Origin: a virus
Strand: one strand, 5' to 3'
DNA: 64,000 nucleotides
Virus record (IMG/VR): IMGVR_UViG_3300013233_000235
Location: 62,001-126,000 of that record
Shown: piece by piece, positions 39,658 to 56,434 of the stretch
How positions within the stretch are numbered: position 1 is the stretch's first letter
How the letters are laid out: every line of letters starts with the position of its first letter
Program-made: the position numbers and the translations under genes
Notes under the pieces: generated by a model
What the model was told of the DNA's origin: nothing
Seen by the model: only the letters and a program-made list of their open reading frames with translations
Database searches by the model: none

Positions 39658-40500
39658 ATGCAATATGAGATCATGGAAAGTAAGCCACGGCTAACCTTCG
39701 AAGAACTGCACACCTTTATAATTGGCCGATCATTCTCATCTAATGAGATGCGCCATCTACATACCGCCCTGTATGCATTCTGGGTGTTAGAGCATATGGG
39801 TGATACCTTTCAAAAGTACGAGGGTGACCGTAGCACACCGGCATATCTTGCACAATTGGACGCAGTTGTTGATCATATCGATCGCAAGCATATGTTTAAC
39901 CGCAATGCCGTTAAACGCGCCCTGCGTAACTTCGGGGTCAGGTTCTCCCCGGCCCACAATGCTCTTTGTGACAAGGATGCGTCGATGACCCCTGCAATGC
40001 TGTACACGTACATGGGTAAATCGGATGCCGCTGAACTAGCCGCTGAAGCCAGACCACATGGTTGGGGCACGCTTTGGCGGATGTTAAGACGATTTCACCC
40101 AGACAATCTGACTGAGGGCGTGCCCCCCACCGCCACCGATTACGTTAATACAGACACACTGTCGATACTGGAAGCGGTGAACATACTGAAACCATACCCA
40201 ATTGTAAGAAGCCGGCGTGGCGCATTATCGCACCGACTTCGCACACTATGCTGGATTAACAGGGTGTTAAGCACTTACGGGGATGATAAGCTATCCCTGC
40301 TGGAGTTTGTGGATGTGGCCAGGATCATTAGCCGTTTCTACCCAGCATACCTATCGGCGGTTGTGGATGACCCATCTGTTAGCCCAGCTATGAACCCAAT
40401 GATGAGCAAGGAATTGGACGACCTATATGCCCACTGGGCAAAACTGGCCAATGAGCAGAGTGCAGCCAAAACCGTGGAGAGCAAAGATGACCATGCTTGA
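39658..40500 (+). CDS. Hypothetical protein
   Basis: 280 residues, AAGGA ten bases before the ATG, starting two bases after the previous stop. Helical, with a His/Arg-rich middle (HGWGTLWRMLRRFHPDN). No family recognised. Its end overlaps the start of the next gene by 14 bases. Placement between a metalloprotease-like protein and an inner-body-like protein suggests a virion protein. Confidence 0.7.
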   Translation: MQYEIMESKPRLTFEELHTFIIGRSFSSNEMRHLHTALYAFWVLEHMGDTFQKYEGDRSTPAYLAQLDAVVDHIDRKHMFNRNAVKRALRNFGVRFSPAHNALCDKDASMTPAMLYTYMGKSDAAELAAEARPHGWGTLWRMLRRFHPDNLTEGVPPTATDYVNTDTLSILEAVNILKPYPIVRSRRGALSHRLRTLCWINRVLSTYGDDKLSLLEFVDVARIISRFYPAYLSAVVDDPSVSPAMNPMMSKELDDLYAHWAKLANEQSAAKTVESKDDHA

Positions 40501-41719
40501 TATAGACATAGAAGCCCCGGACTTAACACCGGTCGATAACCTCACACCCATCACCTCCGCATTACTGGCCACCCTTATCGGTGTTGATAAGGATGGTATA
40601 TCTAAGGCGGATGTGGTTGGATTACAGGGTATCTGCCCAGACCTACTTACGGATGATGTTATCTTGGAGTCCTATACAGAGTACCCATCCGGGGTGAATC
40701 TGGAGCATGGGATGCAGGGTATCTTGAAAAGCATCTGGGATGCTATTTGGAACTCCATCAAATTCGTGTTTACAGCCATTTGGAAAGGGCTTGCATGGAT
40801 CTACGATAAGACCATGAACCTGTTTCTGGGTAAATCGGCCAGGGCTAGTGGCAAGGCGACAGATGTATTAAAGGATATCCGGGCTGGGGCCAAGGTAGAT
40901 CTTGATATGTATTACAACACTGGCAATGCCCTATCCGAGTACATCGAAGAGAATGGCGGGGACTTCAAATCAGTAATCGCAGACCTCGGCCCAAGCCTTG
41001 ATGGCTTCCGTATGTGTCTTGCCAGCAATGGTATTATTGCGACCCTGGCGGCTACAGCCAACACCGCTGCTAACAAGGAGAACACCGACGATATGGATGG
41101 GGCCGCCGACCTATTCCGTAAAGATATAGAAGCTGCTGGTAAAGACGTTGTGACTGGTAAATTGTATAAAGATGTGTACCCGTCGCTAGCCAAAGCTGCC
41201 GATCGGGTAAAATCCTCTTTAGCCAATGGTAAATATAGCAGCTCCAGTAGTGCTGATAATAAGCGCGCCGGGGATGGGCACGTGATTGACATCGGCGACG
41301 CGATGATAGCACCTGTGCGTATAGCTGGCAGAAATTTGGCCGTAGTGAAGGCCCTCAGGAGGGGTAAGCGCCGCATGACCGGTACAGACCGACCAGACCA
41401 AGCACAATCGGTAAAGTCGTTTGAGGTAATCTCTGAGTACCAGAAGAGTGCCGCAGCCGCTGTATCGCCAATGAAAAAGGATAAGGCCGCAGCCAACAAA
41501 GCCAAGAATAAGAACCACAAGTTACCAAAAATGCCCAAAAATGCCAGCGCTGAGGTCACCCAATCAATCAAGGCGGCATCGGCCTTGATAAGCCAGGGTA
41601 TCACGATCATAAAGCACATCTACAACTCATCCAAGTGGAATTTGGAAACGGTGGTGGCGATAACCGCTGAGCAGGCCAATATGGTCGATAGGTTCGCAGC
41701 AGCAACTGCTAGCAAATAA
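40487..41719 (+). CDS. Inner-body-like virion protein, divergent member
   Basis: 410 residues from ATG 40487 (GTGGAGAGCAAAG upstream). It shares the plan of the six paralogues at 48384-56434: an acidic N-terminus with G-hydrophobic-Q motifs (GLQ 45-47, GMQ 75-77), then an amphipathic Trp-rich helix (GILKSIWDAIWNSIKF...), then a divergent Ala/Lys-rich domain. phiKZ inner-body proteins are a comparable family, processed by the prohead protease and ejected with the DNA. It lies 6.7 kb upstream of the main cluster and has only two motif copies, so it is the most diverged member. A terminator follows. Confidence 0.65.
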   Translation: MTMLDIDIEAPDLTPVDNLTPITSALLATLIGVDKDGISKADVVGLQGICPDLLTDDVILESYTEYPSGVNLEHGMQGILKSIWDAIWNSIKFVFTAIWKGLAWIYDKTMNLFLGKSARASGKATDVLKDIRAGAKVDLDMYYNTGNALSEYIEENGGDFKSVIADLGPSLDGFRMCLASNGIIATLAATANTAANKENTDDMDGAADLFRKDIEAAGKDVVTGKLYKDVYPSLAKAADRVKSSLANGKYSSSSSADNKRAGDGHVIDIGDAMIAPVRIAGRNLAVVKALRRGKRRMTGTDRPDQAQSVKSFEVISEYQKSAAAAVSPMKKDKAAANKAKNKNHKLPKMPKNASAEVTQSIKAASALISQGITIIKHIYNSSKWNLETVVAITAEQANMVDRFAAATASK

Positions 41720-41725
41720 GTGTAT

Positions 41726-41756
41726 AAGAAGCCGGGCAAATGCCCGGCTTCTTTTT
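41726..41756. terminator. Bidirectional intrinsic terminator
   Basis: AAGAAGCCGGGC-AAAT-GCCCGGCTTCTT, a perfect 12-bp stem with flanking T-run, between convergent genes. Confidence 0.85.
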
Positions 41757-44619
41757 ATGTAACGTCGGTATAAAAACTAACCTGGATGGATTCTACAATA
41801 TCCACCTTACCAGTGCTGGTGTACTTAGATTCTGTGGCTATGGAAAACTCCCGGCCCTCATCTAATATCCTGGCATTACTCCACTGACCGATGGGCTCGC
41901 CAATGGTCACATCGATGACATCCGCGCCACCATTAACCATCAGAACTCTGGTTATAGCACCTGTGGATAAAACGCCACCACGGATTATGCCAGCCAGTGC
42001 TGCCTTTGTGGAGCTTGTTATACGGCTACGGATAGATTCATCCGCGTAAGCGATGGGTGTCAGCATGTAGTTTATAGTAAAGGAAACAGCAGTGCTTACC
42101 AATACAGTTAACTCACCATCAACCACCGCTAATACCTCACCCATGTTACGGATAGGCTGGTACAGCAGTGTGGTCTCTTCCAATAAGCTTGGATCCATAA
42201 CCCCCAGTTCGTCCAAAAAACCACCTATGTATCTAGGGATATCCGCCACGTAAGTCTCGGCCCAGTTGGTGGTGGCAAACATGTACCTAGCATCAAATGT
42301 GATGGGCGTGAAGCTCCAAACATATCGTTCGTCCCTAGCTAGCATCAACTTACCCGCACGATCGACCATTGGCTCACCCACGCGTTTGTAGTACACAGGT
42401 TCCCCATCCGAGCCGATCTTTGGATCACCGGGTTTGGTTAGTACCTCAAATACAGGCTTCCCATCTTCTCCAACCGTCCATATAAGCTTATCCGAGCTAT
42501 CCCGCTTATAAGTGTACCTGTCGTGAAGTTCCGGGATGTCCTCGTGGTACTGCAATGGTACCGCTGGTATGAGTACAGCGTGTGACCTACAAGCCACGTT
42601 GTGTAGACGTTTGCCGAAGGACACCTCTATGAGCTCACGACTGATGCCGGTGGAACCTTGTCGACCGGTGAACGCAATGTCCCCATCGAACCCGCCGATG
42701 GGGATGTTACTGTTTTCTGGTGACAGATAGAACACATCGAAGTCCCCGGTGATAGGGATATCCACCGGTTGATAATCCCCGTCTTTCCCAAGCATACTGT
42801 TCACACGCAGGTTATCATCACCATCGATATCCAGTGTGGTATCGATTGTGAACACCAGATCGAACCATGTCTCGGTGCGGTTGCTTTCTTCAACGGTGAT
42901 GTGGTATGGCTGGTTATGTACATCGATAAAGCGGAGTTGGGCACCAAAGCCTGTGATATTCTCTGGACCAATAACCACGATGGTGATTTTGTACTGTGGC
43001 CCAACCCTGGTCACAGTTACAGACTTGGTTTGCAGCACATACGGGGAGGCTTCATTAGATGCCAACCACTTGCGTTTATCACTTGTTGGGGCCGTTAGGT
43101 CGTAAACACGGGCTGTGTATAAACCACCATCTGTGTCAAGGACATAGTGGTAGGGCCCAAATATGTATACGTTACGATTCAGCTCATCAGCGAGGTCTTC
43201 CGGGGACATGTCCCGCAGATTATCCATAACGCTTTTGCGAACCACCTCAGATATACCATTGTAGTTACGATATATCTGCTCAGGGGTGACTGTTATCCGA
43301 CCACCATTCTTTATGATGGTACTAGGGTCCATATCAAACTCTTCGGTATCAATGGTTACCTGATCCGTTAACACACCGATACCGGAGCTGAGTGGGGACG
43401 CAGCCGACGCTGGTAATCGCTTGCCACAAATGAAGAGCTTGTCTGTGACGGTATTCTTAGTGCGATACATGCTGTAGCCAAGATCCCGCAAACCAAAACT
43501 CAACTCTTGGAAGGTTATCATGGCCCTACGATCATTGCTTCGGTATATAACCCTGTTACGAACCTCGCTGTAGCTTAACTCATCTCTACCACCACTGACA
43601 ATGGAGTTAGAGAAAAAGATAGCATCATTGATGGATGATAAGGATATCACGCGGGGGTCGAATCGATCAGCAAAACTGTTCCAGTGCACATCGTAATCAT
43701 CCGACTGGTAATCTGATAGATCTTTACTGTATCCACCCACAGTCGTGTAGATGTCCAATCGGATATTGTCACCAACGCTCTGGTTGGTTAAATATACCTC
43801 AGGCAGCTTGACCTCCAACTTACCCGGAGATACCTTTACCTGCAACGTGGGTATCGTGACATCGTAATTCAAACCACTCAGAGTTGTCTCCATCGGAAAC
43901 CACGCCCCCCCATTCTTTTGGTGGAAGGCCTTCACCAATAGAAACTTATCAGCAATGGGGTGTGTGTAGTTAAACCCAGTGGCAATGGATACCGATTCTG
44001 TGATGCGTTCCCCGAACACTTGCTTAACCGGCAACTCGATAACAAGCTTATCCTCAGTACCATCGTTGGTAACATGGTAATTCACCACAGTCCCACCACC
44101 TGGGTTTAAGGGGTCATCGAATGAGTTATCGTAATACACCTGCACAGTGTTGTTAGGTGATACCGCAATGTGTATGGGGCGCATGGTGCACCAGTGCGTG
44201 CCAGCCACCAGTATATCGGTCTCTGCCGGGATTACATGCCGTTTAAGCACGCCGGTCGGATCTTTCACCGCTAACGCCACCGTGGTATCAAGTGGTAACA
44301 CCAGTGTTATAACAGCACTAGCTGGTGAAGCGAACAGGTCCAGATAATCATTATCAGACATGTGGTTGTATAGGTCTTCATAACCCTGCGCCAGTACGGG
44401 GTATGTCGGTCTAACCCCACCTTCGGCCTTCAGAGCTGAGCCACTGGCCATGACCGCCGAGCTCACCATCAACCACACGAACGGGTTAGTTGGATCGCGT
44501 AACTCCAGGGTGTTATCCAGAGCCTCCTCTAGCACATCCAGCGACGCCCCATGTATAAGACTCGGATCACTGTAATAAAGAGCCGTCTCGGCCTTAAGTT
44601 TTTTAGCTGCATCGTTCAT
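41755..44619 (-). CDS. Large virion structural protein, possible baseplate wedge (gp6-like)
   Basis: 954 residues, the largest protein of the window; AGGAAC before the ATG. The N-terminal 110 residues (LEEALDNTLELRDPTNPFVW, then YPVLAQGYEDLYNHMSDNDY) form a conserved-looking helical block that reminds me of baseplate wedge proteins. The remainder is beta-rich with many Thr/Val/Asp strands, typical of tail or baseplate components. Assignment to the wedge is tentative. It follows the gene at 44630 on the same strand by ten bases, so the two are co-transcribed and probably neighbours in the virion. Confidence 0.7.
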   Translation of the reverse strand: MNDAAKKLKAETALYYSDPSLIHGASLDVLEEALDNTLELRDPTNPFVWLMVSSAVMASGSALKAEGGVRPTYPVLAQGYEDLYNHMSDNDYLDLFASPASAVITLVLPLDTTVALAVKDPTGVLKRHVIPAETDILVAGTHWCTMRPIHIAVSPNNTVQVYYDNSFDDPLNPGGGTVVNYHVTNDGTEDKLVIELPVKQVFGERITESVSIATGFNYTHPIADKFLLVKAFHQKNGGAWFPMETTLSGLNYDVTIPTLQVKVSPGKLEVKLPEVYLTNQSVGDNIRLDIYTTVGGYSKDLSDYQSDDYDVHWNSFADRFDPRVISLSSINDAIFFSNSIVSGGRDELSYSEVRNRVIYRSNDRRAMITFQELSFGLRDLGYSMYRTKNTVTDKLFICGKRLPASAASPLSSGIGVLTDQVTIDTEEFDMDPSTIIKNGGRITVTPEQIYRNYNGISEVVRKSVMDNLRDMSPEDLADELNRNVYIFGPYHYVLDTDGGLYTARVYDLTAPTSDKRKWLASNEASPYVLQTKSVTVTRVGPQYKITIVVIGPENITGFGAQLRFIDVHNQPYHITVEESNRTETWFDLVFTIDTTLDIDGDDNLRVNSMLGKDGDYQPVDIPITGDFDVFYLSPENSNIPIGGFDGDIAFTGRQGSTGISRELIEVSFGKRLHNVACRSHAVLIPAVPLQYHEDIPELHDRYTYKRDSSDKLIWTVGEDGKPVFEVLTKPGDPKIGSDGEPVYYKRVGEPMVDRAGKLMLARDERYVWSFTPITFDARYMFATTNWAETYVADIPRYIGGFLDELGVMDPSLLEETTLLYQPIRNMGEVLAVVDGELTVLVSTAVSFTINYMLTPIAYADESIRSRITSSTKAALAGIIRGGVLSTGAITRVLMVNGGADVIDVTIGEPIGQWSNARILDEGREFSIATESKYTSTGKVDIVESIQVSFYTDVT

Positions 44620-44629
44620 ATCAGAGTTC

Positions 44630-45688
44630 CTATAATTTACCGAGGGTTATACCCAGCGAGTTATAAACGCGCCTATACTGGGTGTCTGTTACCCACCACT
44701 CCAGTTCATTGATCTTGGATATGCGCGGATACCCGTGGTAGTTAAAGGCCACGCGTTCCGAGGGGTTAAGTTTAACCATGTACATCTTTCTACTGGAATC
44801 GCGCATCATCGGGTTGAACATACCTACCACACGGTTGAAGTTAACCACGGTGATGGGGTCATTTATTCTACACCCGAAGGCCTTAAACCGCGTGTTTACC
44901 TGGCCCCGATCGGGCACACTTATCGAATCGCTTGTGAAGTTACCATCCGCCCCGTTAGGTACACCGTCTGGATATGATGCACCAACTGAGTATGTTTTAC
45001 GCACCCATGTTCTGGTGTTATCCAGCACGAGTCGGTATATGCACGTGTTGTAATCAATCTTACGACCCACGATGTACTGTGGATATGGGGCCATCGTGCC
45101 AACATACACCGCTTTAGCATAAATAACCCAGGCAGCTAATAGCGCCGTAATTGGGTCACCATCCATGTTACGGAAGCTGGCTGATAAGTCATAGGTCCCG
45201 TAGTACTCAACATTATCAGCGATCCAGCCTGTGACTTCTTTGCGCTTACCCTCCTTAGATATGTACGATTCAGCCTTTTCGTCTGGCCAACCCGACATGC
45301 TTAATAGGGAGTTCGACAGCACCGGTATGAATGCTTGTAGGTCGTCTATAACCTCGGACCGGGGTGTGCGAGTACCAGCACCAACCCTATAAATAGTCTG
45401 CCCATTGCTATCTAAAACCCTAGGGGATAGGGTCGCCCGTATAGCCGCTGCCATAGTCTGGGTACCATCCGCCGCCAAATGTGTTAGCCGGCGTACCGCC
45501 ATTAGGTTATCGTATGATAAATTAAGGTTAGGCTTAGTAAAAAATGTCATGCCTTGGTTATCGAAATTTGCTGGGGCTGGGTTACCCGTGCCACGATGGT
45601 TCATGCCATTCATGACGTTAAGGGTATGGGCTCCGCGAACCCCTTTACCAGATAACGCCAGCACTCTTTCTATGTCATCACTATACAT
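44630..45688 (-). CDS. Virion structural protein
   Basis: 352 residues from the ATG at 45688; a TTG further upstream would read through the ribosome site and is rejected. The Shine-Dalgarno CCGGAG is half of a palindrome shared with the divergent gene at 45709. Beta-rich with Gly/Asn/Thr loops and ending in NELEWWVTDTQYRRVYN. Immediately upstream of the large structural gene on the same strand, hence probably a baseplate or tail partner. No family recognised. Confidence 0.7.
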   Translation of the reverse strand: MYSDDIERVLALSGKGVRGAHTLNVMNGMNHRGTGNPAPANFDNQGMTFFTKPNLNLSYDNLMAVRRLTHLAADGTQTMAAAIRATLSPRVLDSNGQTIYRVGAGTRTPRSEVIDDLQAFIPVLSNSLLSMSGWPDEKAESYISKEGKRKEVTGWIADNVEYYGTYDLSASFRNMDGDPITALLAAWVIYAKAVYVGTMAPYPQYIVGRKIDYNTCIYRLVLDNTRTWVRKTYSVGASYPDGVPNGADGNFTSDSISVPDRGQVNTRFKAFGCRINDPITVVNFNRVVGMFNPMMRDSSRKMYMVKLNPSERVAFNYHGYPRISKINELEWWVTDTQYRRVYNSLGITLGKL

Positions 45689-45692
45689 GAAC

Positions 45693-45704
45693 AACTCCGG
45701 AGTT
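45693..45704. promoter_or_regulatory. Palindromic Shine-Dalgarno shared by divergent genes
   Basis: AACTCCGGAGTT reads the same on both strands. On the plus strand CCGGAG is eight bases before ATG 45709; on the minus strand CCGGAG is six bases before ATG 45688. Only 20 bases separate the two start codons. Confidence 0.8.
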
Positions 45705-45708
45705 AAAG

Positions 45709-46773
45709 ATGAGCGAGGATACAAACGAAGGGTTTCTAAAAACTCTAAATACGGTGGTCATGAAGACACGCGAGTTAGGAACGGATTCTTTATCAGAAGC
45801 CACCCTCGCAACACGACTGACACCAATGGTGCTTATTGACAGCGCACTCACAAGAGCCGATGATAATAATCTGCATAACATCCTTCAAACCATGAGTGGT
45901 ATTTATGCGGCACATTACATGCAGGCGGTCACCATCGCAAATGTGGAATCTATCCGGACAACCCATTACCTGGACAAATTTGCCACAACACCTAAGCGTT
46001 TAAGCGAGGGTAGCGTTGATAAATGGGCTGGCCGTATGGAGGCTGTTTCGGAAGGCACACAGGGCTTTATCGAGAATGGCGCACTGCTACCAACGTATGG
46101 TCTACAGAAGGTGAAAGAACCAGCACTGGATGAGCATGTGAACCTGGCGGTGGGTCGCCAAATTGTCGTCAGAGTCGGCATTGGGGAGAACTCGGTTGAG
46201 CTACCAGTCACACTACAACTGATGCCGCAGATCATCCATACCGACGCCTTGCCAAACGTGTTGGCACAGATCACCGATGATAGGTCTTATAAAGGTAGGT
46301 ATCATAAGTACCGTGCTGGGGAAATCGAAAACTGGGTTGACTATGCCTTTGGTCTAGATCTTATCGACCAAGATAAAAAGCTATTACTGAGCGATGAGAC
46401 AGGCTTATATGCGACGGCCAGAGAGAAACAGACTCGTGGATGGATCGCCACCTTGACATCAGGTCAGAAGACCATCAACATCGCATCCGCCATGGCGATC
46501 ATGGATAAGAACTCCCAAGATGCCTTACAGATGGCACTTGGTGGTAAACTTAAGCGCGCACGAGTTCGTGAAAAGTATTTTGTGGAAACCATGTCCATGA
46601 TGCTAGTTATGGTGGATACCTTAATGCAATCGGTAACCATCTACCAGCGCGGCATCGCTGAGGCTGGAACGTACACCTTCAAGGACATTGAGAAAGCTAG
46701 CCGTAATGCTAACGGTATGGATCTCACGGCCGTATTGCAGGCGTACAAAATGGGCGATGCACCATCACTTTAA
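45709..46773 (+). CDS. Virion protein, unknown
   Basis: 354 residues; CCGGAG before the ATG. Mixed alpha/beta; a Met-rich helix (YFVETMSMMLVMVDTLMQ) lies near residue 290. It is first of a four-gene run up to 49694. Because the divergent gene starts 20 bases away, its promoter must lie inside that gene. A structural or morphogenesis role is inferred from context; no family recognised. Confidence 0.7.
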   Translation: MSEDTNEGFLKTLNTVVMKTRELGTDSLSEATLATRLTPMVLIDSALTRADDNNLHNILQTMSGIYAAHYMQAVTIANVESIRTTHYLDKFATTPKRLSEGSVDKWAGRMEAVSEGTQGFIENGALLPTYGLQKVKEPALDEHVNLAVGRQIVVRVGIGENSVELPVTLQLMPQIIHTDALPNVLAQITDDRSYKGRYHKYRAGEIENWVDYAFGLDLIDQDKKLLLSDETGLYATAREKQTRGWIATLTSGQKTINIASAMAIMDKNSQDALQMALGGKLKRARVREKYFVETMSMMLVMVDTLMQSVTIYQRGIAEAGTYTFKDIEKASRNANGMDLTAVLQAYKMGDAPSL

Positions 46774-46789
46774 CCCGGGGAGAGTAGGA

Positions 46790-47728
46790 ATGGCAAAGCG
46801 GATAGGGTACGGGAGTACTAGAAGGAAGGGACGGGCGACTGTCATTGGAGCCACAAAGGCTTTTGTGAGTGGACTTATACCCACGTTTGAGAAATCACGA
46901 GTGCTGGACGACCTTGATGATATTTATAAATCATTGGAGCAAGTGCCGGCGATGTACACCCTTGATAGCGAACTTTTTATACCGCTATTAAAGGTTGGGT
47001 TCCCAGACCTGATCAGAGGCATCGAACGAAACCAGAAACATTACCATGGGGACTTCTTCCGGTCAGTTAAGTTCATTGCTGAAGAGCGGCATAAAGAGCG
47101 CAATGAGTTTATGGATTACATTGATGAGGTCATCGGGCCAGTTATCGATAAAGATGATCTGGACTATCGCAAGCTACAACTGTTGCGATACACCGATGGG
47201 CTGGCATTCTTCAACCTGTATAGCCGAAAACTGATGATCTATTTGACCAACCAGTTAATCGACGACCCAGCTATTGTATCCCCCGTCGACCAGCTTGATG
47301 AGAAGTTTATCAAGGATAGCGTTAACCAGTTGACTTTCACAATGGTTATGCGATCTTTGGCTTACGACATCAAGTACATTAAAGATGCGATGGTGAGCAT
47401 CGGCCATATCCAGTTTGACCCCGATACCCACGACATGGTGATGGCGGAACGCAGTAAGACTGTGGACCCCATTGGCCAAGCCATGATCCCCGGCATCGGC
47501 GATCTGGTGCACGCTGTTGGTAAGATGTACAACATGTGGGTTAAAGGTCGCAGAGATTTAGCGCAGGAAGAGGTAGAGCGACTGCGTATCCAAGTTGTAC
47601 TACTTAACCGTAAACTGGATTCGACGACCACTAAAGAGGAGTCGGCGAAACTGGTTAGACAGATTGAGTATTACAATAACCGGATTAACAAAATCTCAGC
47701 TAAGATGGATGCACTGGTCGAGGATTAG
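46790..47728 (+). CDS. Virion protein with C-terminal coiled coil
   Basis: 312 residues from ATG 46790 with GGGGAGAGTAGGA upstream; the in-frame ATG at 46688 lies inside the preceding gene. Basic N-terminus (MAKRIGYGSTRRKGR), a long helical body, and a heptad-rich C-terminal coiled coil from about residue 255. Likely a head or tail morphogenesis protein by context. No family recognised. Confidence 0.7.
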   Translation: MAKRIGYGSTRRKGRATVIGATKAFVSGLIPTFEKSRVLDDLDDIYKSLEQVPAMYTLDSELFIPLLKVGFPDLIRGIERNQKHYHGDFFRSVKFIAEERHKERNEFMDYIDEVIGPVIDKDDLDYRKLQLLRYTDGLAFFNLYSRKLMIYLTNQLIDDPAIVSPVDQLDEKFIKDSVNQLTFTMVMRSLAYDIKYIKDAMVSIGHIQFDPDTHDMVMAERSKTVDPIGQAMIPGIGDLVHAVGKMYNMWVKGRRDLAQEEVERLRIQVVLLNRKLDSTTTKEESAKLVRQIEYYNNRINKISAKMDALVED

Positions 47729-47736
47729 GGGGGCAT

Positions 47737-48258
47737 ATGTACAGACTATTGGGGGATAATGAGTATCAGATACTCAAAGATTTAATTGAACGGAGACAGT
47801 CCGTAGCAACCGACCGATGGACTTTACTGGATATCCTTAGCGGCTGCCGCCTTGTATATAAGGCCCGGTACCAACCTGCTACTGAGGATCGGTCACAAAA
47901 TGCGGTTGTTGAAATATATGATCTTATGAAGGATCTGCTTCGCACCCGTAAGGGGCATGAGTGGGTATCCGGGGAATCCGTGTCACCATTCTTTTATCTA
48001 GCTTTTGATAGCACACCAATTGATCGGGATGATAGAAGATTGGCACATGAGCTTAGTCTAGAAGCCATGATGGGGGAGGTATTAGGCAAAGAGAATGTAC
48101 CTAGGAGCACGCTATTTGCTCTGATTCCACCTACTTCTGTCGAGAGAATATATAGCGCGTTATCAATTTTATACGTGATAAACACGCTGCGTAGATCTTG
48201 GCAGGAACCAGGCTTCGACAAAAACATGGATGGACGTGAGCAGAATGCGTCCAGATAG
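47737..48258 (+). CDS. Hypothetical protein
   Basis: 173 residues, AGGGGGG before the ATG. Helical, mixed charge, no recognised motif. It ends the short operon begun at 45709; the following 125-base gap holds an imperfect hairpin with a T-run (48331-48357) and then the leader of the highly expressed inner-body-like genes. The function is unknown. Confidence 0.65.
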   Translation: MYRLLGDNEYQILKDLIERRQSVATDRWTLLDILSGCRLVYKARYQPATEDRSQNAVVEIYDLMKDLLRTRKGHEWVSGESVSPFFYLAFDSTPIDRDDRRLAHELSLEAMMGEVLGKENVPRSTLFALIPPTSVERIYSALSILYVINTLRRSWQEPGFDKNMDGREQNASR

Positions 48259-48330
48259 TGGTAGGGAAAGACCCGATATACACCCTAATCATCAGCTTAT
48301 AACGAGTGGTGGGTAGGTCAGAATTCCAAC

Positions 48331-48357
48331 TAACCATACCGCGGTTATGGATTTTTT
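48331..48357 (+). terminator. Weak intrinsic terminator
   Basis: TAACC/GGTTA or CCATA/TATGG can pair around CCGCGG, followed by six T residues. The stem is imperfect. Confidence 0.4.
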
Positions 48358-48383
48358 AAACACATCGATGGGAAAGTTTTACT

Positions 48384-49694
48384 ATGAGCTATTTGAAGAA
48401 CTACATGGGCGGCGGCGTCGCTACCCAATTTGAAGAACACGACGTGACCGGCATGCAAAGCCTCGAATTGGCATGTGAAATGGCCGATCTCGAAGATGCA
48501 GACATGCTGCACAACGATATTGAAGATGCCATCCGCATGGCTGGTGAAACTGAAGCCGGTCTACAAGCATTATTGCCAGACATGTACAATCCAAACAACA
48601 GCCGCATGAACACTGCCGATAAAGCATACATCGCCGCTGGTGTAAACTTCCATCTGATGAACGCCGGTATTACCGATGATCCAGGTATGCAGGGTGTTGC
48701 CGATGCATGGAAAGCTGTTAAAGACTGGGCTATCAAATTGTGGCGCTCCATTGTAGCTTTGTATGACCGTGCCGTAGCCGCTGTAACCAAATGGCTCGAA
48801 AAGATGTTCGGCCCTATCACCAAACTCAAAGCTCGCGCAGAAGCGTTGAAAACTAAAGCTGATGAATCTGATGGTACCCCCAAAGAAGCCAATTTGAAAA
48901 TCGGTGCTCAGCGCAAATATCTGGATACAGCCAAAGCGGCATCCAGTAGCATGAATCTGACGATGCTCGGTGGTGCCAAAAGTGGTGCCGAAGATTTCTT
49001 CAAAAAACATATGCCCAACATTTCTGAAGCTCTAACCGAAGGTTTGTCGGATGCAGCGGCATTGATCGGCGGTGACAAAGATGCTGAAGAAATCAAAACG
49101 GCTGTTAACAATGTGGCCACCACTTACAATGCGGCGATGATTGTGTTAGCAGATAAAGATGTGGCTAAAAATGATTTGCCCGAAGATCTATCTGCCGGCA
49201 AATCCAAGGTCACAGCCAATGACCCTATCATGGGTAATGGTCGCTTCTATAGCTCAGTTCCAACCAAAGATGGTGATAAAGATCAGCGCATCGGCACCAT
49301 GTCCTTCCATGGCCCCACTGGTAAAGCCTTCAAAGACATGAAAGATGAAAACCTGAAAGCATTGACTTCAGGCGAGATCTCTACCCAGTGCGATGGTATT
49401 ATGGAAATGTGCGATGTCCTACTTGACACCCGCATTGTCAAAGACTTGACCACTCTGTCGAAAGACCTCAAAAGTCAAGGCAACGACATCAGCAAAGCTA
49501 TGGCCAAAGATAGCGACAAAAATGCCAAGATCAAAGGTCAAGTCAAAAGCATGATGACTGATATTGCTAAGGGCGGTGCCAACCTGCGTAACCCAGCTAA
49601 AGGCTTCATTGCCCACAGCACTACCACCCTGTCTGCTGTCTACAGTTTCTGCTCAAGTAGCTTCGATAACCTCGAAGTAAAAGGCGATTCCTAA
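48384..49694 (+). CDS. Inner-body-like virion protein, paralogue 1
   Basis: 436 residues, weak GGGAAAG before the ATG. Acidic N-terminal region with three G-hydrophobic-Q motifs (GMQ 23-25, GLQ 59-61, GMQ 101-103), the last directly followed by a Trp-containing amphipathic helix (DAWKAVKDWAIKLWRSIVA). The rest is a Lys/Ala/Asp-rich helical domain. Codons differ from neighbouring genes (AAA, GAA and GGT preferred), as expected for strong expression. By analogy with phiKZ inner-body proteins it would be packed in the capsid, trimmed by the prohead protease and ejected with the DNA; this is inference from architecture and position. Confidence 0.65.
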   Translation: MSYLKNYMGGGVATQFEEHDVTGMQSLELACEMADLEDADMLHNDIEDAIRMAGETEAGLQALLPDMYNPNNSRMNTADKAYIAAGVNFHLMNAGITDDPGMQGVADAWKAVKDWAIKLWRSIVALYDRAVAAVTKWLEKMFGPITKLKARAEALKTKADESDGTPKEANLKIGAQRKYLDTAKAASSSMNLTMLGGAKSGAEDFFKKHMPNISEALTEGLSDAAALIGGDKDAEEIKTAVNNVATTYNAAMIVLADKDVAKNDLPEDLSAGKSKVTANDPIMGNGRFYSSVPTKDGDKDQRIGTMSFHGPTGKAFKDMKDENLKALTSGEISTQCDGIMEMCDVLLDTRIVKDLTTLSKDLKSQGNDISKAMAKDSDKNAKIKGQVKSMMTDIAKGGANLRNPAKGFIAHSTTTLSAVYSFCSSSFDNLEVKGDS

Positions 49695-49723
49695 GCAACA
49701 TCTAACCCACCATTCAATTTGAG

Positions 49724-49745
49724 GCAGTTGGTAACAACCGACTGC
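49724..49745 (+). other. Intergenic hairpin
   Basis: GCAGTTGGT-AACA-ACCGACTGC pairs over nine bases (one U-G) just before the ribosome site of the gene at 49761. No T-run; possibly a translation-regulating or processing stem. Confidence 0.4.
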
Positions 49746-49760
49746 TCTCCGGAGCTTAAT

Positions 49761-51008
49761 ATGAACCAATTACGTAACGCATTGGGTATGTCTTCCCATG
49801 CAGGATCTTCAGCCAGTGCAGATGATTTGTACGAACAAGCTGAACAGCAAGCCACCTATCGTGAGCTGCGCAAAATGAACAACGATTGCAATAGCTTAGA
49901 AGCAGCCCATATTGGCATGCAGTCTTTGCAACGCATCGGTGGTAAGGGTAATACCGCTGCATTGATTGCATCTGCGAACAGCATGTTGCAAGCAATGGGT
50001 ATTGATCCCGAAGAAAACTCTCTACCTGGTATGCAGAGCTTTGGCCCATCTGACACCACCGCTGGTATGCAGGGTATTGGTGCCTGGTTGAAACGCATCT
50101 GGGATGCGATTGTAAAGTTCTTTAAGGACATTTACAAGAAAGTGGCTGACTGGTTTAACGGTGTTGACAAAGAAGCCAAGAAGATCAAAGGTGCTAACGC
50201 TAAACTGCGCACCTTCCTGGAAGGCTTGGCGGATGACGCCGAATCCAAAAATGATAAGGTCAGCATGAGCAAGTCTTATGCATACCTGATCAGCAATGGC
50301 AAGATCGACCACGATGATAAAAAAATCCATGTTAAAAACATCGAAGCGGCTATCAAATCGTACCACACCGACACCGTGATCAAGTTCTACAATGACTACG
50401 CCGATAAAGTGGTCGAAGCATTGGAGAAAGATGGTGTCGAAAAGGCTGCCACTGATACTGCCACAGGTGCGGCTAAAACAGATCTCGCCACCGCAATGAA
50501 AACTGAGTTTAAGATTGAGGGTACCAACACCACAGTCCCAATGATCGCAAACGGTACGATCAAGTTTAAGGACGCGGGTGCAGCGGCGACCGAGGGGGAG
50601 ACCGCCCCCACCATGGCGGCAGTTGTGTATGATATCGGTACACGCGCTGATGACACCACTGGTCGAATCGATGTAAATGTCGATAGCCCTGAGAACATCA
50701 TCGAAGTCCTTGATACTTCTGACACATTGTGCGATCACTCCATGATCGGTGTTGGCAAGGTTGACAAGGAAAAGAAAGACCTTGAAAAACAGGGTGCACG
50801 CATCATCAAAGCTATGGATGCTTTCAACGCCAAAGTGGCAGATGATACATCCAAACACTCCAACATCAATAAAGATGTCATCACCGAATTTATGAAGCTG
50901 GCTCGCCAGACTCGTACTGACGGTTCCGTGACTCTGATCCGCGATGTATTGAAGACTGCTAAAACTCTGTCTTCTATGGCTGGTAAACTTGGTTCAGAGT
51001 ACCGTTAA
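49761..51008 (+). CDS. Inner-body-like virion protein, paralogue 2
   Basis: 415 residues from ATG 49761 with CCGGAG upstream; the in-frame start at 49719 is upstream of the hairpin. Begins MNQLRNALGM, matching the MNALRAALGM opening of the next paralogues. Three GMQ motifs (52-54, 90-92, 102-104), the last followed by the amphipathic helix GIGAWLKRIWDAIVKFFKDI. Lys-rich helical remainder. Codon choice again resembles a strongly expressed gene. A processed, ejected internal head protein is the working assumption. Confidence 0.65.
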   Translation: MNQLRNALGMSSHAGSSASADDLYEQAEQQATYRELRKMNNDCNSLEAAHIGMQSLQRIGGKGNTAALIASANSMLQAMGIDPEENSLPGMQSFGPSDTTAGMQGIGAWLKRIWDAIVKFFKDIYKKVADWFNGVDKEAKKIKGANAKLRTFLEGLADDAESKNDKVSMSKSYAYLISNGKIDHDDKKIHVKNIEAAIKSYHTDTVIKFYNDYADKVVEALEKDGVEKAATDTATGAAKTDLATAMKTEFKIEGTNTTVPMIANGTIKFKDAGAAATEGETAPTMAAVVYDIGTRADDTTGRIDVNVDSPENIIEVLDTSDTLCDHSMIGVGKVDKEKKDLEKQGARIIKAMDAFNAKVADDTSKHSNINKDVITEFMKLARQTRTDGSVTLIRDVLKTAKTLSSMAGKLGSEYR

Positions 51009-51014
51009 TAGCGA

Positions 51015-51095
51015 TCTCTAACTAACTAAAAATAGCCGGGGCTTCGGCCCCGGCTGTTATAAAGGAAAAACTATGAATGCATTAAGAGCAGCGCT
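51015..51095 (+). repeat. 81-bp direct repeat, copy 1
   Basis: Identical over 81 bases to 52360-52440. It contains a TTCG hairpin (AGCCGGGGC-TTCG-GCCCCGGCT at 51034-51055), the ribosome site AAAGGAAAA and the first codons of the following gene. In copy 2 the left end is also the coding end of the preceding paralogue. Confidence 0.9.
51034..51055 (+). terminator. TTCG hairpin between inner-body genes
   Basis: A perfect 9-bp GC stem with a TTCG loop, followed by TGTTAT rather than a T-run. Partial termination or mRNA end protection is likely. The identical stem recurs at 52379-52400. Confidence 0.55.
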
Positions 51096-52374
51096 TGGAA
51101 TGAGTAACACCGGTGATGGGTATACCCCACCGGATACTCGTGATGCCGGCGATATCCTTGCGGATTCAGTAGCATGTGGTTTCCAGTCATTAGACAGTAT
51201 GTTTACCCAGTTGGGTGCCTACCATACCACCGTAGAAGACATCGAGTCAACAGCGGGCTTACAGTGGCTGTACGATGATGGTGTGACGGATGGTGTACAG
51301 TTTATTGGAAAGGCCATCAAAGCGGTCTGGAAGGCCATTGTGGATACCATTAAATGGATCGGTAAACAGATGAAACGATTCTGGAAGTGGGTGTTCGGTG
51401 ATGCGAAGACCGAGGGTAATGGCAAGAAGGGATCCAAGTACGAGAAGGGTGGGCCTAAGAAGATGACCCCTGGGTATGCCCGCATATTGGTAAAGGTTGA
51501 TGGGTGGAAAACCTTAGCCGCTGCTGCCGCCAATGACGATTCCTCTCTAAATGAGTTGTTCACAGCGGTCCATGGGTACTCTAAACTAGCGCTACCGGAT
51601 ACAGAGCACGCAGCCGCCAAAGAAAAACTAAAGAACAACCTGGGATACTTCACATCAGATGGGTCGTTTACCACCACGGTGCCACCAGACCATAAACCAT
51701 TGAAAGCTTTTCATAGAGCCATGCTCGCCGAGGCATTTGATGTAGCGGGGGCTGGTGGATTTACGTTCGCCAATAACCCCCCCAGCCATCGGGTTATTAA
51801 AATTAACCCGCGGGGGTACGAGCATATTAACACGGTTGTAAATACAGCCGACGACGATACGGATACATTACAAGCACTTGTGCGCGAGTTCGTGTTATCA
51901 ATCGTGGGGTATTTTGAGTCAGTAGGTGGTGCAGTAAACGACAGAACCGATGCTGGCATGCATATACAGTACGAGGGTGGCGGCTCCAAATACCACATTG
52001 TGACCATCAATGGTGGCGTCGGTGTAGTAATCGGCTGGACGCCGCCCTCTGGTGGTGGGGCCATAGAAACCATGCCTACCACCGTCCCACCCATGCTGAA
52101 TAACAGGCTCATAGGGGACGATGTCGAAAAGGAATATGAGAAAGAGATCACACACTACCGGGATAAATTGGCCGAATGCCAGGCGCTTGGTGATAAAACC
52201 ATAAAGGTGGTCGAGGGGTGGGAAAACAATAAGGAAGCGGCTGCCGAAATAGCCAAGAGAACCGCGGAATCGCTTAAGGCAGATACCGACGCCATGGTAA
52301 AACATATTAAAAGTATGAGCACTGCTTTGACTGCTCAGGCAATGTTATTGGCTGTTGCCTCTCTAACTAACTAA
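51073..52374 (+). CDS. Inner-body-like virion protein, paralogue 3
   Basis: 433 residues, AAAGGAAAA before the ATG. Motifs GFQ 36-38, GLQ 62-64 and GVQ 74-76, the last abutting the cationic helix FIGKAIKAVWKAIVDTIKW. A central module (SKLALPDTEHAAAKEKLKNN) is shared with paralogues 4 and 5, and the C-terminus ends LLAVASLTN like theirs (LLAIGALTN, LLAIAALTN). The N-terminal 60 codons are nearly identical to those of the gene at 53744, not to the adjacent one, so the array is mosaic. The role is inferred as for the other members. Confidence 0.65.
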   Translation: MNALRAALGMSNTGDGYTPPDTRDAGDILADSVACGFQSLDSMFTQLGAYHTTVEDIESTAGLQWLYDDGVTDGVQFIGKAIKAVWKAIVDTIKWIGKQMKRFWKWVFGDAKTEGNGKKGSKYEKGGPKKMTPGYARILVKVDGWKTLAAAAANDDSSLNELFTAVHGYSKLALPDTEHAAAKEKLKNNLGYFTSDGSFTTTVPPDHKPLKAFHRAMLAEAFDVAGAGGFTFANNPPSHRVIKINPRGYEHINTVVNTADDDTDTLQALVREFVLSIVGYFESVGGAVNDRTDAGMHIQYEGGGSKYHIVTINGGVGVVIGWTPPSGGGAIETMPTTVPPMLNNRLIGDDVEKEYEKEITHYRDKLAECQALGDKTIKVVEGWENNKEAAAEIAKRTAESLKADTDAMVKHIKSMSTALTAQAMLLAVASLTN

Positions 52375-52440
52375 AAATAGCCGGGGCTTCGGCCCCGGCT
52401 GTTATAAAGGAAAAACTATGAATGCATTAAGAGCAGCGCT
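52360..52440 (+). repeat. 81-bp direct repeat, copy 2
   Basis: Exact copy of 51015-51095, spaced 1345 bases from it. It includes the last codons and stop of paralogue 3, the TTCG hairpin, the ribosome site and the first codons of paralogue 4. Confidence 0.9.
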
Positions 52441-53722
52441 GGGCACAGACACCGGCGAGACAGACCCCACGCCTAGACGTGCGGATGGGGCGGGCCTTGA
52501 GATATCGATTGTGGTAGGGCTACAGTCCGTTGAGAGCATGGTGAACCAAATCGCGGCATACTCTCAGGCTCAAGCTGGTATGGACGATTCCCCGGGGTTA
52601 CAGGCGCTATATGGTGACGGTGATACAGATGGCATGCAGTTTATAGGCAAGGCCCTCAAGTCCATCTGGGATGCTATCTTTCGGGTACTCAAATGGGTTG
52701 GGCAGCAGATGCGCCGATTCTGGAAGTGGGTGTTCGGCAGTGGGGGTGCGGATGGTAATGATAAGAAGGGCTCTAGGTACGAGAAGAGCGGGCCTAAGAA
52801 GCTACCCAAGCCTGTCGCCGAGTTATTGGTGATTACCGATAAGTGGCGGGTATTGGCCGAAGAGGCTGCTGGTGGCAATGATGAGTCACTTGACGAGTTG
52901 TTTAAAGGCACCCATGGGTTTTCTAAACTATCTCTGCCTGATACAGAGCATGCCGCTGCTAAAGAAAAACTAAAGAACAACTTGGAGTATTTTAAAGCAG
53001 GGGCAGAGTTCACCGTGGGGGTCCCACCCGATCATGCCGAGCTATTAGCACACCATGAGTACTTGTTAAAAAATGGTGAGGATGTGGCAAGTGGTTCCGG
53101 ACTGGCGTATAAGAATGTGATCATCGGTGCCGCGCACACCCAGGTTATACTTAAAAACTACTGGGATATGACGGATAAGATAAACTCTATAAAAAACACC
53201 AAGGCATCCCTAAAAGAGTATGTGGATGGGGTGGTGGAAGAAGTGCGTAAGAGTGTGGTCCCACATATGGTGGATAACGCCCCACTCCCGGCTGATGACG
53301 CCAAGATTACCACGTACAGATATACCAATGGTGGGGCCACGGTTATATTGCACACCGACAAAGGTGGGGTGGGTGTACGGATTGGCTGGGAAGAACCGCA
53401 CGGTGAGGGGGTTTTCACAACGATGCCCACCACGGTAGGCCCAATCCAGACCGATGGTATATACAGCGATTTAGAAAAAGCCACACATCACGCATTTGTA
53501 ACCACGATGGATATGGCTAAATACGCCAAGGAAAATGTGGATAAGATCTTAACCACCCTTAAGTCCTGGGACGTGAACAAAGAAGCCGGCGCAATGATGG
53601 CCAAACATATATCTGCGGGCCTAAAGGAAGATGCCAAGATTTTTATGGCGATAGTGCCCACCACCACCCATCAGATAAAGGCTTTGGCTATCTTGCTAGC
53701 TATTGGGGCTTTAACCAACTGA
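52418..53722 (+). CDS. Inner-body-like virion protein, paralogue 4
   Basis: 434 residues, AAAGGAAAA before the ATG inside the 81-bp repeat. Motifs GLQ 34-36, GLQ 60-62 and GMQ 72-74, then FIGKALKSIWDAIFRVLKW. Carries the shared SKLSLPDTEHAAAKEKLKNN module and the LLAIGALTN end. The region between about residues 210 and 400 is unlike the neighbours, apart from a GGVGVRIGW segment like the GVGVVIGW of paralogue 3. Confidence 0.65.
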   Translation: MNALRAALGTDTGETDPTPRRADGAGLEISIVVGLQSVESMVNQIAAYSQAQAGMDDSPGLQALYGDGDTDGMQFIGKALKSIWDAIFRVLKWVGQQMRRFWKWVFGSGGADGNDKKGSRYEKSGPKKLPKPVAELLVITDKWRVLAEEAAGGNDESLDELFKGTHGFSKLSLPDTEHAAAKEKLKNNLEYFKAGAEFTVGVPPDHAELLAHHEYLLKNGEDVASGSGLAYKNVIIGAAHTQVILKNYWDMTDKINSIKNTKASLKEYVDGVVEEVRKSVVPHMVDNAPLPADDAKITTYRYTNGGATVILHTDKGGVGVRIGWEEPHGEGVFTTMPTTVGPIQTDGIYSDLEKATHHAFVTTMDMAKYAKENVDKILTTLKSWDVNKEAGAMMAKHISAGLKEDAKIFMAIVPTTTHQIKALAILLAIGALTN

Positions 53723-53743
53723 GTAACTACACGAAGGAAAGCT

Positions 53744-55054
53744 ATGAATGCATTAAGAGCAGCGCTTGGAATGAGTAACACCGGTGGTGGGTATACCCCA
53801 CCGGATACCCGCAATACTGGTGACATCCTTACAGATTCAGTAGCATGTGGTTTTCAGTCATTAGACAGTATGTTTACCCAGTTGGGTGCTTACCACGATA
53901 CGGCGGCCGACATCGAGTCAATCCCGGGCCTGCAATGGCTGTACGATAGTGGTGTAACCGACGGCGTACAGTTCATTGGAACTGCCATCAAAGCGGTCTG
54001 GAAGGCGATTACCGGCATTATTAAGTGGGTCGGTAAACAAATGAAACGATTCTGGAAGTGGGTGTTCGGTGGGAAGACCGCTGGCGGTAACGGTACGGCG
54101 GGATCCAAGTTCGAGAAAGAAGGTCCTAAAAAGGTGCAGTATGATATCGCAAAGGTGTATGTTGAGACAGACAAGTGGAAAGTCTTAGCAGAAGAAGCTA
54201 TTGATGGTAAAGATGCATCCTTGGACGAGTTGTTCACAGCGGTCCATGGGTACTCTAAACTATCACTGCCTGATACTGAGCATGCCACGGCTAAAGAAAA
54301 ACTAAAGAACAACTTGGAATACTTTAAGGATGGTGCCAAGTACACCGTAAGCATCCCAGCGGACCACGCTGTGCTAAAACAGTACCACAGCACGCTGTTA
54401 GCAAGTGGGATAGATGTTGATCCCGATGTGGACACCGCAGGCTTCACATACGTGGGCAGGGGGCCTACACCCCGGGTACTAGCCATTGTATCAAAGGCCG
54501 ATGCTAACTACTTAACAGACCTTGCTAGCATAGACGGTAAGGAGGAGGAGCTACGGGTCATTGGTAATACACTGCTTGAGGCAGTCGAGGCCGAGCTAAC
54601 AGCTAAGGGGTATAAGCGGAAAGGCGTTCGCGCTGGCATGGGGGACTATACCCACCCCGCCGGTGGGGTTGAGTACCGCACCTACAACACAACCAACCTC
54701 ATTGGATTACGTGTACAGTGGTCAGAAAACGATGACAACGCGGTGCTTGAATTACCACTCACCACTGGTACCATGGGTCCGGGGTATCTATATGGTACCG
54801 ATGCTGTGAAGAAAATCATTGCTGGGTTTGATACCCTTAAAGAGTCTATAGACCATGTGGGGAAACTAGCAGAAAAGGCCGTCGGCCACATCAAGGGGTG
54901 GAAGGAATCGGAGAAGCTAGGTACAAATATCGCTAAGTTGGTTATGGACAAGGTTAAGGCTGATAATTTGGCTGCGACCAACTATGTGAAAACAGCGACA
55001 GTTCAGATCAAGGCGGTAGCAGTCCTTCTGGCCATTGCGGCTTTAACCAACTGA
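53744..55054 (+). CDS. Inner-body-like virion protein, paralogue 5
   Basis: 436 residues, GAAGGAAAG before the ATG. Its first 60 residues are nearly those of paralogue 3 (MNALRAALGMSNTGGGYTPP), with GFQ 36-38, GLQ 62-64 and GVQ 74-76, then FIGTAIKAVWKAITGIIKW. The shared SKLSLPDTEHATAKEKLKNN module and LLAIAALTN end are present. Residues 225-400 are divergent. It looks like a recombinant or partly converted copy of paralogue 3. Confidence 0.65.
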   Translation: MNALRAALGMSNTGGGYTPPDTRNTGDILTDSVACGFQSLDSMFTQLGAYHDTAADIESIPGLQWLYDSGVTDGVQFIGTAIKAVWKAITGIIKWVGKQMKRFWKWVFGGKTAGGNGTAGSKFEKEGPKKVQYDIAKVYVETDKWKVLAEEAIDGKDASLDELFTAVHGYSKLSLPDTEHATAKEKLKNNLEYFKDGAKYTVSIPADHAVLKQYHSTLLASGIDVDPDVDTAGFTYVGRGPTPRVLAIVSKADANYLTDLASIDGKEEELRVIGNTLLEAVEAELTAKGYKRKGVRAGMGDYTHPAGGVEYRTYNTTNLIGLRVQWSENDDNAVLELPLTTGTMGPGYLYGTDAVKKIIAGFDTLKESIDHVGKLAEKAVGHIKGWKESEKLGTNIAKLVMDKVKADNLAATNYVKTATVQIKAVAVLLAIAALTN

Positions 55055-55096
55055 TAAATTACCCCGGGGTAATCCCACGGGGCGATAAGGACAACT

Positions 55097-56434
55097 ATGA
55101 ATGCATTAAGAGCAGCATTAGCAGACAACCCGATCCCAGTACACCCCGTGTACAATGGTGGCGAAGACTTCACCTGCCCATCCGTGGGTATACAGTCTAT
55201 ATCAGACATGCTTGACCAGATATCAGAGCTGGGCGAGTCCCGCGAATATATAAAAGACTGCGCTGGATTACAAACACTGTATTCTGACGGTGATACAGAT
55301 GGCATGCAGTTTATTGGAAAGGCCATCAAAGCTGTATGGGAGGCAATTGTAGCGGTGATTAGCTGGGTTGGTAAACAGTTTAAGAGATTCTTTGACTGGC
55401 TAACTGGCGGCAGTGGCGGCGGTAAAGGAGCTAAGGGTAGTAGCATCACGATATCAGTATGGCGTAATAACGGGCCACCCGATATCCCCATCAAACTCAG
55501 TGCCGCATATGTGCGCATGGAGAAGATAGTCCTCCTGGCCATAGCCGTAAAAGAAGACAGGGATGACAAGGATTCCCTAAACAAGTTATATGCCGAGCTG
55601 CGGATGTCGTCACCAAAGGCCCCATCCGATAGCGGTGACGAGAAAAACTGGCATGCCAACCTGCTAAGTAACATTGATGACCTAGCTGATGCCTACGACG
55701 GCATCACGTGCCCATATGTTGGGGAGTTTGCCGATGGTACCACCCTGTACAACGCACTATCTGCGGAGGGGGCCACTCTGGGTGACGTGGTACCTGAAAC
55801 TGAAGATATGATGTATTTCCCCTACGACGGCTTGGCGGACTCGTTAAGGGAATCCGTATTCAAGATAATAAAGGAGATCGACGATCTAGACGAGAGTGAT
55901 TATGATGAAGGTGTGAAGTTAGTGAAGGCCCTGCGCATAGCCCTCGATGATATGTATCTTAGCAAGGATGGTACTACTCCTATGGTTAAAGAGGACCACA
56001 TAGATTTCCGCAGGATCAGTCTCGGAAACAACGAGACCTACATACGCATAACCACGACGTCCGATATGACACTCAGGGTTGCCACCACACACGGTGGTCG
56101 TGGTAAACTGACACCTAAGAAATCCACCGAAGTAACATTCGACGCTAGATTCCTTTCACCACCAGCCGTCAAGGAATACAAAAAAACAGTGGATGCCGCA
56201 CTGAAAAAATATGAAGAATCCCATAAACTTATACGGGGTATGAGTGTCGATAAATGGGCTAGGGAGAACCAAGATGCCCCGACCGCCAAAGCCAAACTGT
56301 CTGCCACAAATGTGGCTATCAAATTGTACCAGGGTGATATGGATAACCTCAAGCATGAGGTTAAGCGAGCAATGGTGGTGGCCGAGCTAGCTATAAAACT
56401 GATTGCCGGCAAGATGTTGTACACCAAGGGGTAG
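55097..56434 (+). CDS. Inner-body-like virion protein, paralogue 6
   Basis: 445 residues, AAGGACAA before the ATG. Opening MNALRAALAD, motifs GIQ 31-33, GLQ 57-59 and GMQ 69-71, then FIGKAIKAVWEAIVAVISW and a Gly/Ser linker (GGSGGGKGAKGSS). It lacks the PDTEHA module and the LTN ending of paralogues 3-5, so only the N-terminal module is shared. Last of the contiguous array, followed by an imperfect hairpin. Confidence 0.65.
   Translation: MNALRAALADNPIPVHPVYNGGEDFTCPSVGIQSISDMLDQISELGESREYIKDCAGLQTLYSDGDTDGMQFIGKAIKAVWEAIVAVISWVGKQFKRFFDWLTGGSGGGKGAKGSSITISVWRNNGPPDIPIKLSAAYVRMEKIVLLAIAVKEDRDDKDSLNKLYAELRMSSPKAPSDSGDEKNWHANLLSNIDDLADAYDGITCPYVGEFADGTTLYNALSAEGATLGDVVPETEDMMYFPYDGLADSLRESVFKIIKEIDDLDESDYDEGVKLVKALRIALDDMYLSKDGTTPMVKEDHIDFRRISLGNNETYIRITTTSDMTLRVATTHGGRGKLTPKKSTEVTFDARFLSPPAVKEYKKTVDAALKKYEESHKLIRGMSVDKWARENQDAPTAKAKLSATNVAIKLYQGDMDNLKHEVKRAMVVAELAIKLIAGKMLYTKG

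Follow-up and report, generated by a model that had tools for sequence, protein, structure and literature searches.

A tripeptide of the form G-x-Q recurs near the N-termini of seven proteins encoded between positions 40487 and 56434 of a 64,000-nucleotide window, which comprises bases 62001-126000 of the 204,041-base virus record IMGVR_UViG_3300013233_000235; the rest of the record was covered as eight loci (coordinates L001 to L008). The record is that of a 204-kb phiKZ-like phage, and the part of the window from 36.6 to 57 kb is syntenic with genes 44 to 54 of Salmonella phage SPN3US. Six of the seven proteins, at 48384-56434, occupy the position of SPN3US gp53 and gp54. Proteins are named here by the first position of their genes. 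The 48384 and 49719 proteins match the inner-body family phiKZ_IP (PF12699) in Pfam with 77 and 75 bits (cut-off 27). No PF12699 match was found in the 40487, 51073, 52418, 53744 and 55097 proteins, and these are called inner-body-like because only the acidic leader and/or the site-plus-helix stretch described below is common to them and the two PF12699 members. The 40487 gene lies between the gp46 and gp48 homologues and aligns locally with gp47, an essential ejected head protein of SPN3US with the proven cut site AVE/S (PMC10052503 Table 2; a slash marks the bond cut); because this alignment is short and of low identity, the homology rests mainly on synteny. The 49719 gene likely starts at ATG 49761 (MNQLRNALGMSS, which resembles MNALRAALG in the four paralogues encoded at 51073-56434) and not at TTG 49719.

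Across the seven open reading frames, G-[MLVIF]-Q occurs 20 times (2+3+3+3+3+3+3), the number counted in an earlier note on this DNA, whereas 0.46 copies are expected from the remaining proteome. The same note placed all copies within the first 105 residues, which is approximately true if the 49719 gene begins at the in-frame ATG 49761 but not if it begins at TTG 49719. Shuffling the same N-terminal residues 2000 times gave a mean of 1.0 copy and a maximum of 6, compared with 18 observed in fixed 105-residue windows, and chance as the source of the tripeptides is ruled out by these statistics. The copies do not represent 20 independent events, because four of the seven proteins are recent tandem paralogues, three of which share 40-48% identity; four distinct lineages alone still carry 11 copies. 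The close paralogy of these four would fit tripeptides that arose by chance and were multiplied by recent gene duplication, but the motif is carried by four independent lineages and also by the protease, the capsid protein, the portal and the gp45 and gp50 homologues, so that this explanation is refuted and its probability is close to nil. The middle residue is hydrophobic in the 20 counted copies, as the note had it, but this is not a requirement of the motif, since GTQ and GCQ are found too.

The phage encodes an S80 prohead protease at L002:5377-6183 (PF20034, 1.5e-54, 185 bits, cut-off 23.4), whose catalytic triad H78, S153 and D179 is intact and invariant across 111 S80 proteins. The protease contains a single site of the type G-phi-Q/small, PGMQ-205/SADA, at the C-terminal autocleavage position. 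Its location is that of AQE-203 in SPN3US gp245 and of PGLE/S or PALE/S in many relatives, and it stands downstream of a K-[YWF]-x-S segment, as S80 autocleavage sites do; cleavage at this bond is predicted. S80 proteases are also expected to have Glu at P1, the residue preceding the cut, whereas Gln occupies the aligned sites of this phage; membership in the family stands, because P1 Glu is a specificity trait and not a family definition. In the protease tail, GLM/SS has replaced a second conserved Glu site. The enzyme has R105 where relatives have His (105/110) and D185 where all 110 have Gly, and these two residues are candidates for setting P1. In a tree of the 111 S80 proteins, the protease falls within the Glu-type enzymes and has the longest terminal branch (2.37), with unsure placement; Glu is most simply regarded as ancestral because of this position.

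The Glu state is highly uniform outside this phage. P1 of the autocleavage site is Glu in 110/110 further S80 proteases, all non-identical and taken from IMG/VR and phage records, of which 101 were found by pattern and nine were read by eye (A[QR]E/S in the SPN3US group and PAE/G in sm033). The S80 proteases of five later loci, from three GTDB-contig records and two further IMG/VR records, have Glu sites throughout. Likewise, the aligned capsid-protein sites carry Glu in 28/28 relatives and the gp45-type sites in 26 of 27 homologues; across these comparisons, Gln at P1 is confined to the present phage.

The earlier note had suggested looking for G-x-Q in other virion proteins, and the tripeptide is indeed present in the major capsid protein, the portal, the protease and others. 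The major capsid protein (PF25620, 359 bits) has the sites GMQ-43, GLQ-70 and GTQ-128, and GTQ-128/AFEEKD, a predicted propeptide cut, corresponds to the proven ATE-130/YYTNKD of SPN3US. AVGLQ/AI of the gp45 homologue is aligned with AVASE/SI of SPN3US, and VVGLQ/G of the gp47 homologue with VAVE/S. In the gp50 homologue, GTQ/GF stands at the place of ATE/SS, and many relatives have a pair of Glu sites there, xKE/SY..GLPSLE/SF. The gp45 and gp47 sites agree best without gaps; the gp50 and capsid alignments contain gaps between residues, and their sites were matched by flanking sequence, the capsid protein additionally by a wider alignment. The gp262 homologue (L003:10975-12348, minus strand) has GLQ-20/AID near the AVE/S motif of gp262, a suspected, unproven substrate in SPN3US, which suggests that gp262 is cut. 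The top match of the motif scan is the L008:8330-9217 protein (minus strand; phrog_4682, function unassigned), whose short leader ends in DPGMQ/GVTED and which is predicted to be a new processed head protein.

The motif was examined beyond the tripeptide itself. A matrix built from the 20 sites of the seven proteins ranked the capsid protein 2, the protease 3, the gp45 homologue 6, the gp262 homologue 7 and the portal 10 among 191 other proteins (Mann-Whitney p=1.6e-4). Refinement over 33 sites in 15 proteins gave [AP]-G-[LM]-Q/[SGA]-[ILVFM]. P1' is S, G or A at 25/33 sites and at 8/40 other G-x-Q of the genome (p=2e-6), and P2' is I, L, V, F or M at 32 of the 33 sites compared with 10 of the 40 (p=8e-11). 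P1' and P2' played no part in choosing the seven-protein sites. The 33 sites are partly non-independent owing to the four paralogues, and a non-redundant set of 24 gives p below 1e-6; three added proteins (L008:6729-8318, L008:8330-9217 and the gp262 homologue) were partly picked by the matrix. The sites chosen by homology alone (protease, capsid protein, portal, gp45 and gp50; n=9) fit at 8/9 for P1' and at 8/9 for P2'.

In all seven proteins the last G-x-Q directly precedes an amphipathic Trp/Lys helix, as the earlier note had described; the helix has 3-4 tryptophans and a net positive charge. Its hydrophobic moment ranks at the 98.5-100th percentile when every 18-mer of the genome is considered, and the leader ahead of it has a net charge of -6 to -14. 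An AlphaFold2 model of the 51073 paralogue has a predicted local distance difference test (pLDDT) score of 54 overall and contains one helix at residues 73-108, of low confidence, preceded by a low-confidence leader. Little beyond the leader and the stretch of site plus Trp helix is common to the four paralogues at 51073-56434 and the other inner-body proteins. The same stretch is found in the gp47 homologue and in the L008:6729-8318 protein, so it forms a module of about 35 residues, site plus helix, attached to different protein bodies. Inner-body proteins of relatives are built alike but carry Glu sites (VSVE/GIKDTIKRVWEAV and VALE/GIKEVLREWWQKF), and the cut sites of SPN3US gp53 and gp54 are proven, with the mature N-termini GWKETLKDLFERF and SLWDDIKAFLQRIFDWLK (PMC10052503). 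Because SPN3US gp53 and gp54 and other phiKZ_IP proteins show it, removal of the acidic leader to expose the Trp helix is best described as a family-wide trait that occurs here with Gln; cleavage-driven exposure of the helix is ancestral and not tied to Gln.

Table 1. Features of the inner-body region, with related head proteins. Positions are those of the window unless a locus is given; a slash marks a predicted or proven cut.
Feature	Position	Strand	Sites and remarks
gp45 homologue, phrog_2767	38375..39655	+	site AVGLQ-12/AID at 38402-38410, aligned with proven ASE-20/S
Inner-body-like protein, gp47 homologue	40487..41719	+	synteny and short local alignment; sites GLQ-47/GICP, GMQ-77/GILKSIWDAIW
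GLQ site of gp47 homologue	40619..40627	+	aligned with SPN3US gp47 AVE/S, proven by mass spectrometry (PMC10052503 Table 2)
GMQ maturation site of gp47 homologue	40709..40717	+	followed by helix GILKSIWDAIWNSIKFVFTAIWKGLAW
gp50 homologue, phrog_3239	45709..46773	+	sites GTQ-118/GF, GLQ-133/KV; proven SPN3US counterpart ATE-127/SS
Inner-body protein, phiKZ_IP PF12699	48384..49694	+	sites GMQ-25, GLQ-61, GMQ-103/GVADAWKAVKDW
Last (maturation) site GMQ of 48384 protein	48684..48692	+	
Inner-body protein, phiKZ_IP PF12699	49719..51008	+	sites GMQ-68, GMQ-106, GMQ-118/GIGAWLKRIWDAI, numbered from TTG 49719
Last (maturation) site GMQ of 49719 protein	50064..50072	+	
Inner-body-like paralogue	51073..52374	+	sites GFQ-38/SL, GLQ-64/WL, GVQ-76/FIGKAIKAVWKAI
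Amphipathic Trp/Lys helix of 51073 protein	51301..51396	+	residues 77-108, directly after the last site
Inner-body-like paralogue	52418..53722	+	sites GLQ-36/SV, GLQ-62/AL, GMQ-74/FIGKALKSIWDAI
Inner-body-like paralogue	53744..55054	+	sites GFQ-38/SL, GLQ-64/WL, GVQ-76/FIGTAIKAVWKAI
Inner-body-like paralogue	55097..56434	+	sites GIQ-33/SI, GLQ-59/TL, GMQ-71/FIGKAIKAVWEAI
Eighth inner-body-like protein	L008:6729-8318	-	outside the window and far from the cluster; GLQ, then GCQ/GIGSMIKGVWGAIVSLIGRILKW, same helix

Two further observations concern other proteins of the record. The sequence HEIGH, of the kind found in zinc metallopeptidases, occurs in the gp45 homologue, and SPN3US gp45 has HEVGH at the equivalent place; the gp45 homologue is a possible second protease in the head. 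A 3738-residue tail-fibre-like protein at L001:5775-16988 (minus strand) has a peptidase/endolysin-type domain near residues 3026-3190.

The G-x-Q tripeptides are very probably cleavage sites of the phage's own S80 prohead protease, whose P1 specificity would have changed from Glu to Gln. The earlier note had regarded them as phiKZ-type sites with Gln for Glu at P1, and the aligned proven SPN3US sites, together with the protease, capsid protein and portal of the phage itself, support that view. The sequences show the motif with its statistics, the homologies of the protease and its substrates, and the match to proven SPN3US sites; from these we infer cleavage after Gln, the S80 enzyme as the cutter, and the role of the helix. 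Several points weigh against this assignment. The phage is known from metagenomic sequence alone, and the Gln state from a single genome. Queries of IMG/VR with its terminase, protease, capsid and inner-body proteins turned up no close relative; alignment of the terminase gave only 80 distant relatives (best 41%), and a terminase scan of GTDB genomes only six distant contigs. A tblastn search of known phages with two inner-body proteins gave nothing for one and a single weak match for the other. The portal sites GYQ-190 and GFQ-238 fall in the expected region of the protein but have no clean alignment to the proven SPN3US portal sites, a homologue of gp225 was sought and none was found, and some P1' residues (F, W and K) are not small. 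A solved structure of an S80 relative, sought to locate the S1 pocket, was not found either.

The position of G-x-Q in acidic N-terminal leaders could also be explained if the tripeptide served for capsid targeting or docking, by binding to the scaffold or shell, and stayed uncut, and acidic leaders of phiKZ-like phages probably do also target proteins into the prohead (PMC5694885). However, the tripeptide occurs as well in the capsid protein and in the protease's C-terminal tail, it is aligned with proven cuts, and the P1' and P2' preferences resemble a protease subsite pattern, which makes an uncut targeting signal very improbable. It is slightly less probable still that the S80 enzyme continues to need Glu and that a different protease cuts the Gln sites, or that their Gln is first deamidated to Glu. 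Such conservatism would agree with the cutting after Glu reported for T4, phiKZ, 201phi2-1 (29 sites) and SPN3US (PMC9026906), but the autocleavage site of the protease is itself a Gln site, and the enzyme, on its long branch, has lost conserved S80 residues (H105 to R and G185 to D). Codon reassignment is excluded by the ordinary GAG at the invariant E75 of the protease and by the use of both CAA and CAG for Gln at P1.

If the tripeptides are cut by the S80 protease, the enzyme would cleave itself near its C-terminus at GMQ-205/S during head assembly, and would cut the capsid and portal precursors as well as the leaders of the inner-body proteins, which are acidic and probably disordered and would each be cut two or three times. 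After the final cut, the mature N-terminus of these proteins, which are packaged in the head and ejected together with the DNA, would be the cationic, Trp-rich amphipathic helix. That cutting strips the acidic leader, so that the new N-terminus is an amphipathic helix, had been proposed in the note and is supported by the same alignments to proven SPN3US sites and by the protease, capsid protein and portal of the phage. The note went on to propose a pro-peptide system for ejected proteins that open or cross the host membrane. Its reading of the sites is supported, but its special scope is not, the motif being a general head-maturation signal: a signal special to membrane-active proteins is ruled out by the same motif in the capsid protein, portal and protease, and opening or crossing the membrane goes beyond the evidence.

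The exposed helix would most likely bind a surface, either the host inner membrane or early-infection vesicle, or the core of the inner body. phiKZ injects its inner-body proteins into the host (PMC10449902), and early phage DNA and injected proteins reside inside a membrane-bounded early-infection vesicle (PMC12908238). Action of the helix at the vesicle membrane is a reasonable supposition, somewhat less likely than not, and so is a part in packing the inner body. There is close to an even chance that the cut is real but that the helix is an assembly element, for inner-body packing or core/DNA binding, and not membrane-acting, an arrangement compatible with cleavage of G-x-Q by the S80 protease. 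The ordered core formed by inner-body proteins and the retention of the helix in SPN3US gp53 and gp54 and in many phiKZ_IP proteins favor an assembly role, whereas the helices richest in Trp and positive charge look like membrane-surface helices and the injected proteins are found in a membrane-bounded vesicle; neither of these latter points is decisive.

The closest known system is that of SPN3US gp245 (Scheuch et al. 2023, PMC10052503). Both enzymes are S80 proteases with the same triad and the same C-terminal autocleavage position, and they have substrates of the gp45, gp47, gp50 and gp53/54 types, the capsid protein and the portal in common, with several cuts per leader and, in gp53 and gp54, an amphipathic helix behind the final cut. 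However, SPN3US cuts after A-x-E where the present phage has G-x-Q at aligned sites, and it has two proteins in the gp53/54 region whereas the present phage has six. gp175 of phiKZ is likewise an S80 enzyme, with clustered inner-body genes (gp93/95/97) whose products are cleaved and injected into the host (PMC10449902); its motif is S/A-x-E (PMC9026906), and its identity to the present protease is about 31% or less. T4 gp21 is likewise a Ser protease acting within the prohead on the capsid protein, core and internal proteins, but it recognizes L/I-x-E with Glu at P1, and the leaders of the internal proteins are short (10-20 residues). Proteases of the 3C/3CL type from RNA viruses prefer a hydrophobic P2, Gln at P1 and a small P1'; the likeness is an analogy only, with an unrelated fold and mechanism.

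An essential enzyme that cuts many substrates would be expected to keep its P1 residue fixed, since a switch requires all sites to change at once. The 33 sites in 15 proteins point to a coordinated switch of P1 from Glu to Gln and not to a dedicated membrane-protein system, and the interest of the case lies in this change across a whole head-maturation system, seen so far in one phage. What was a vague idea of a surface-active helix released by cleavage becomes a named module, site plus Trp helix, across the phiKZ_IP family. It is possible, though unlikely, that the whole maturation system has been re-keyed so that heads of this phage and of other phiKZ-like phages are mutually unmaturable; if true, cleavage specificity would be a barrier between co-infecting giant phages. 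The protease may be an enzyme of unusual specificity, the motif can be used to predict processed head proteins in uncultured phages, and the phage offers a direct test of how a P1 switch happens and which residues set P1.

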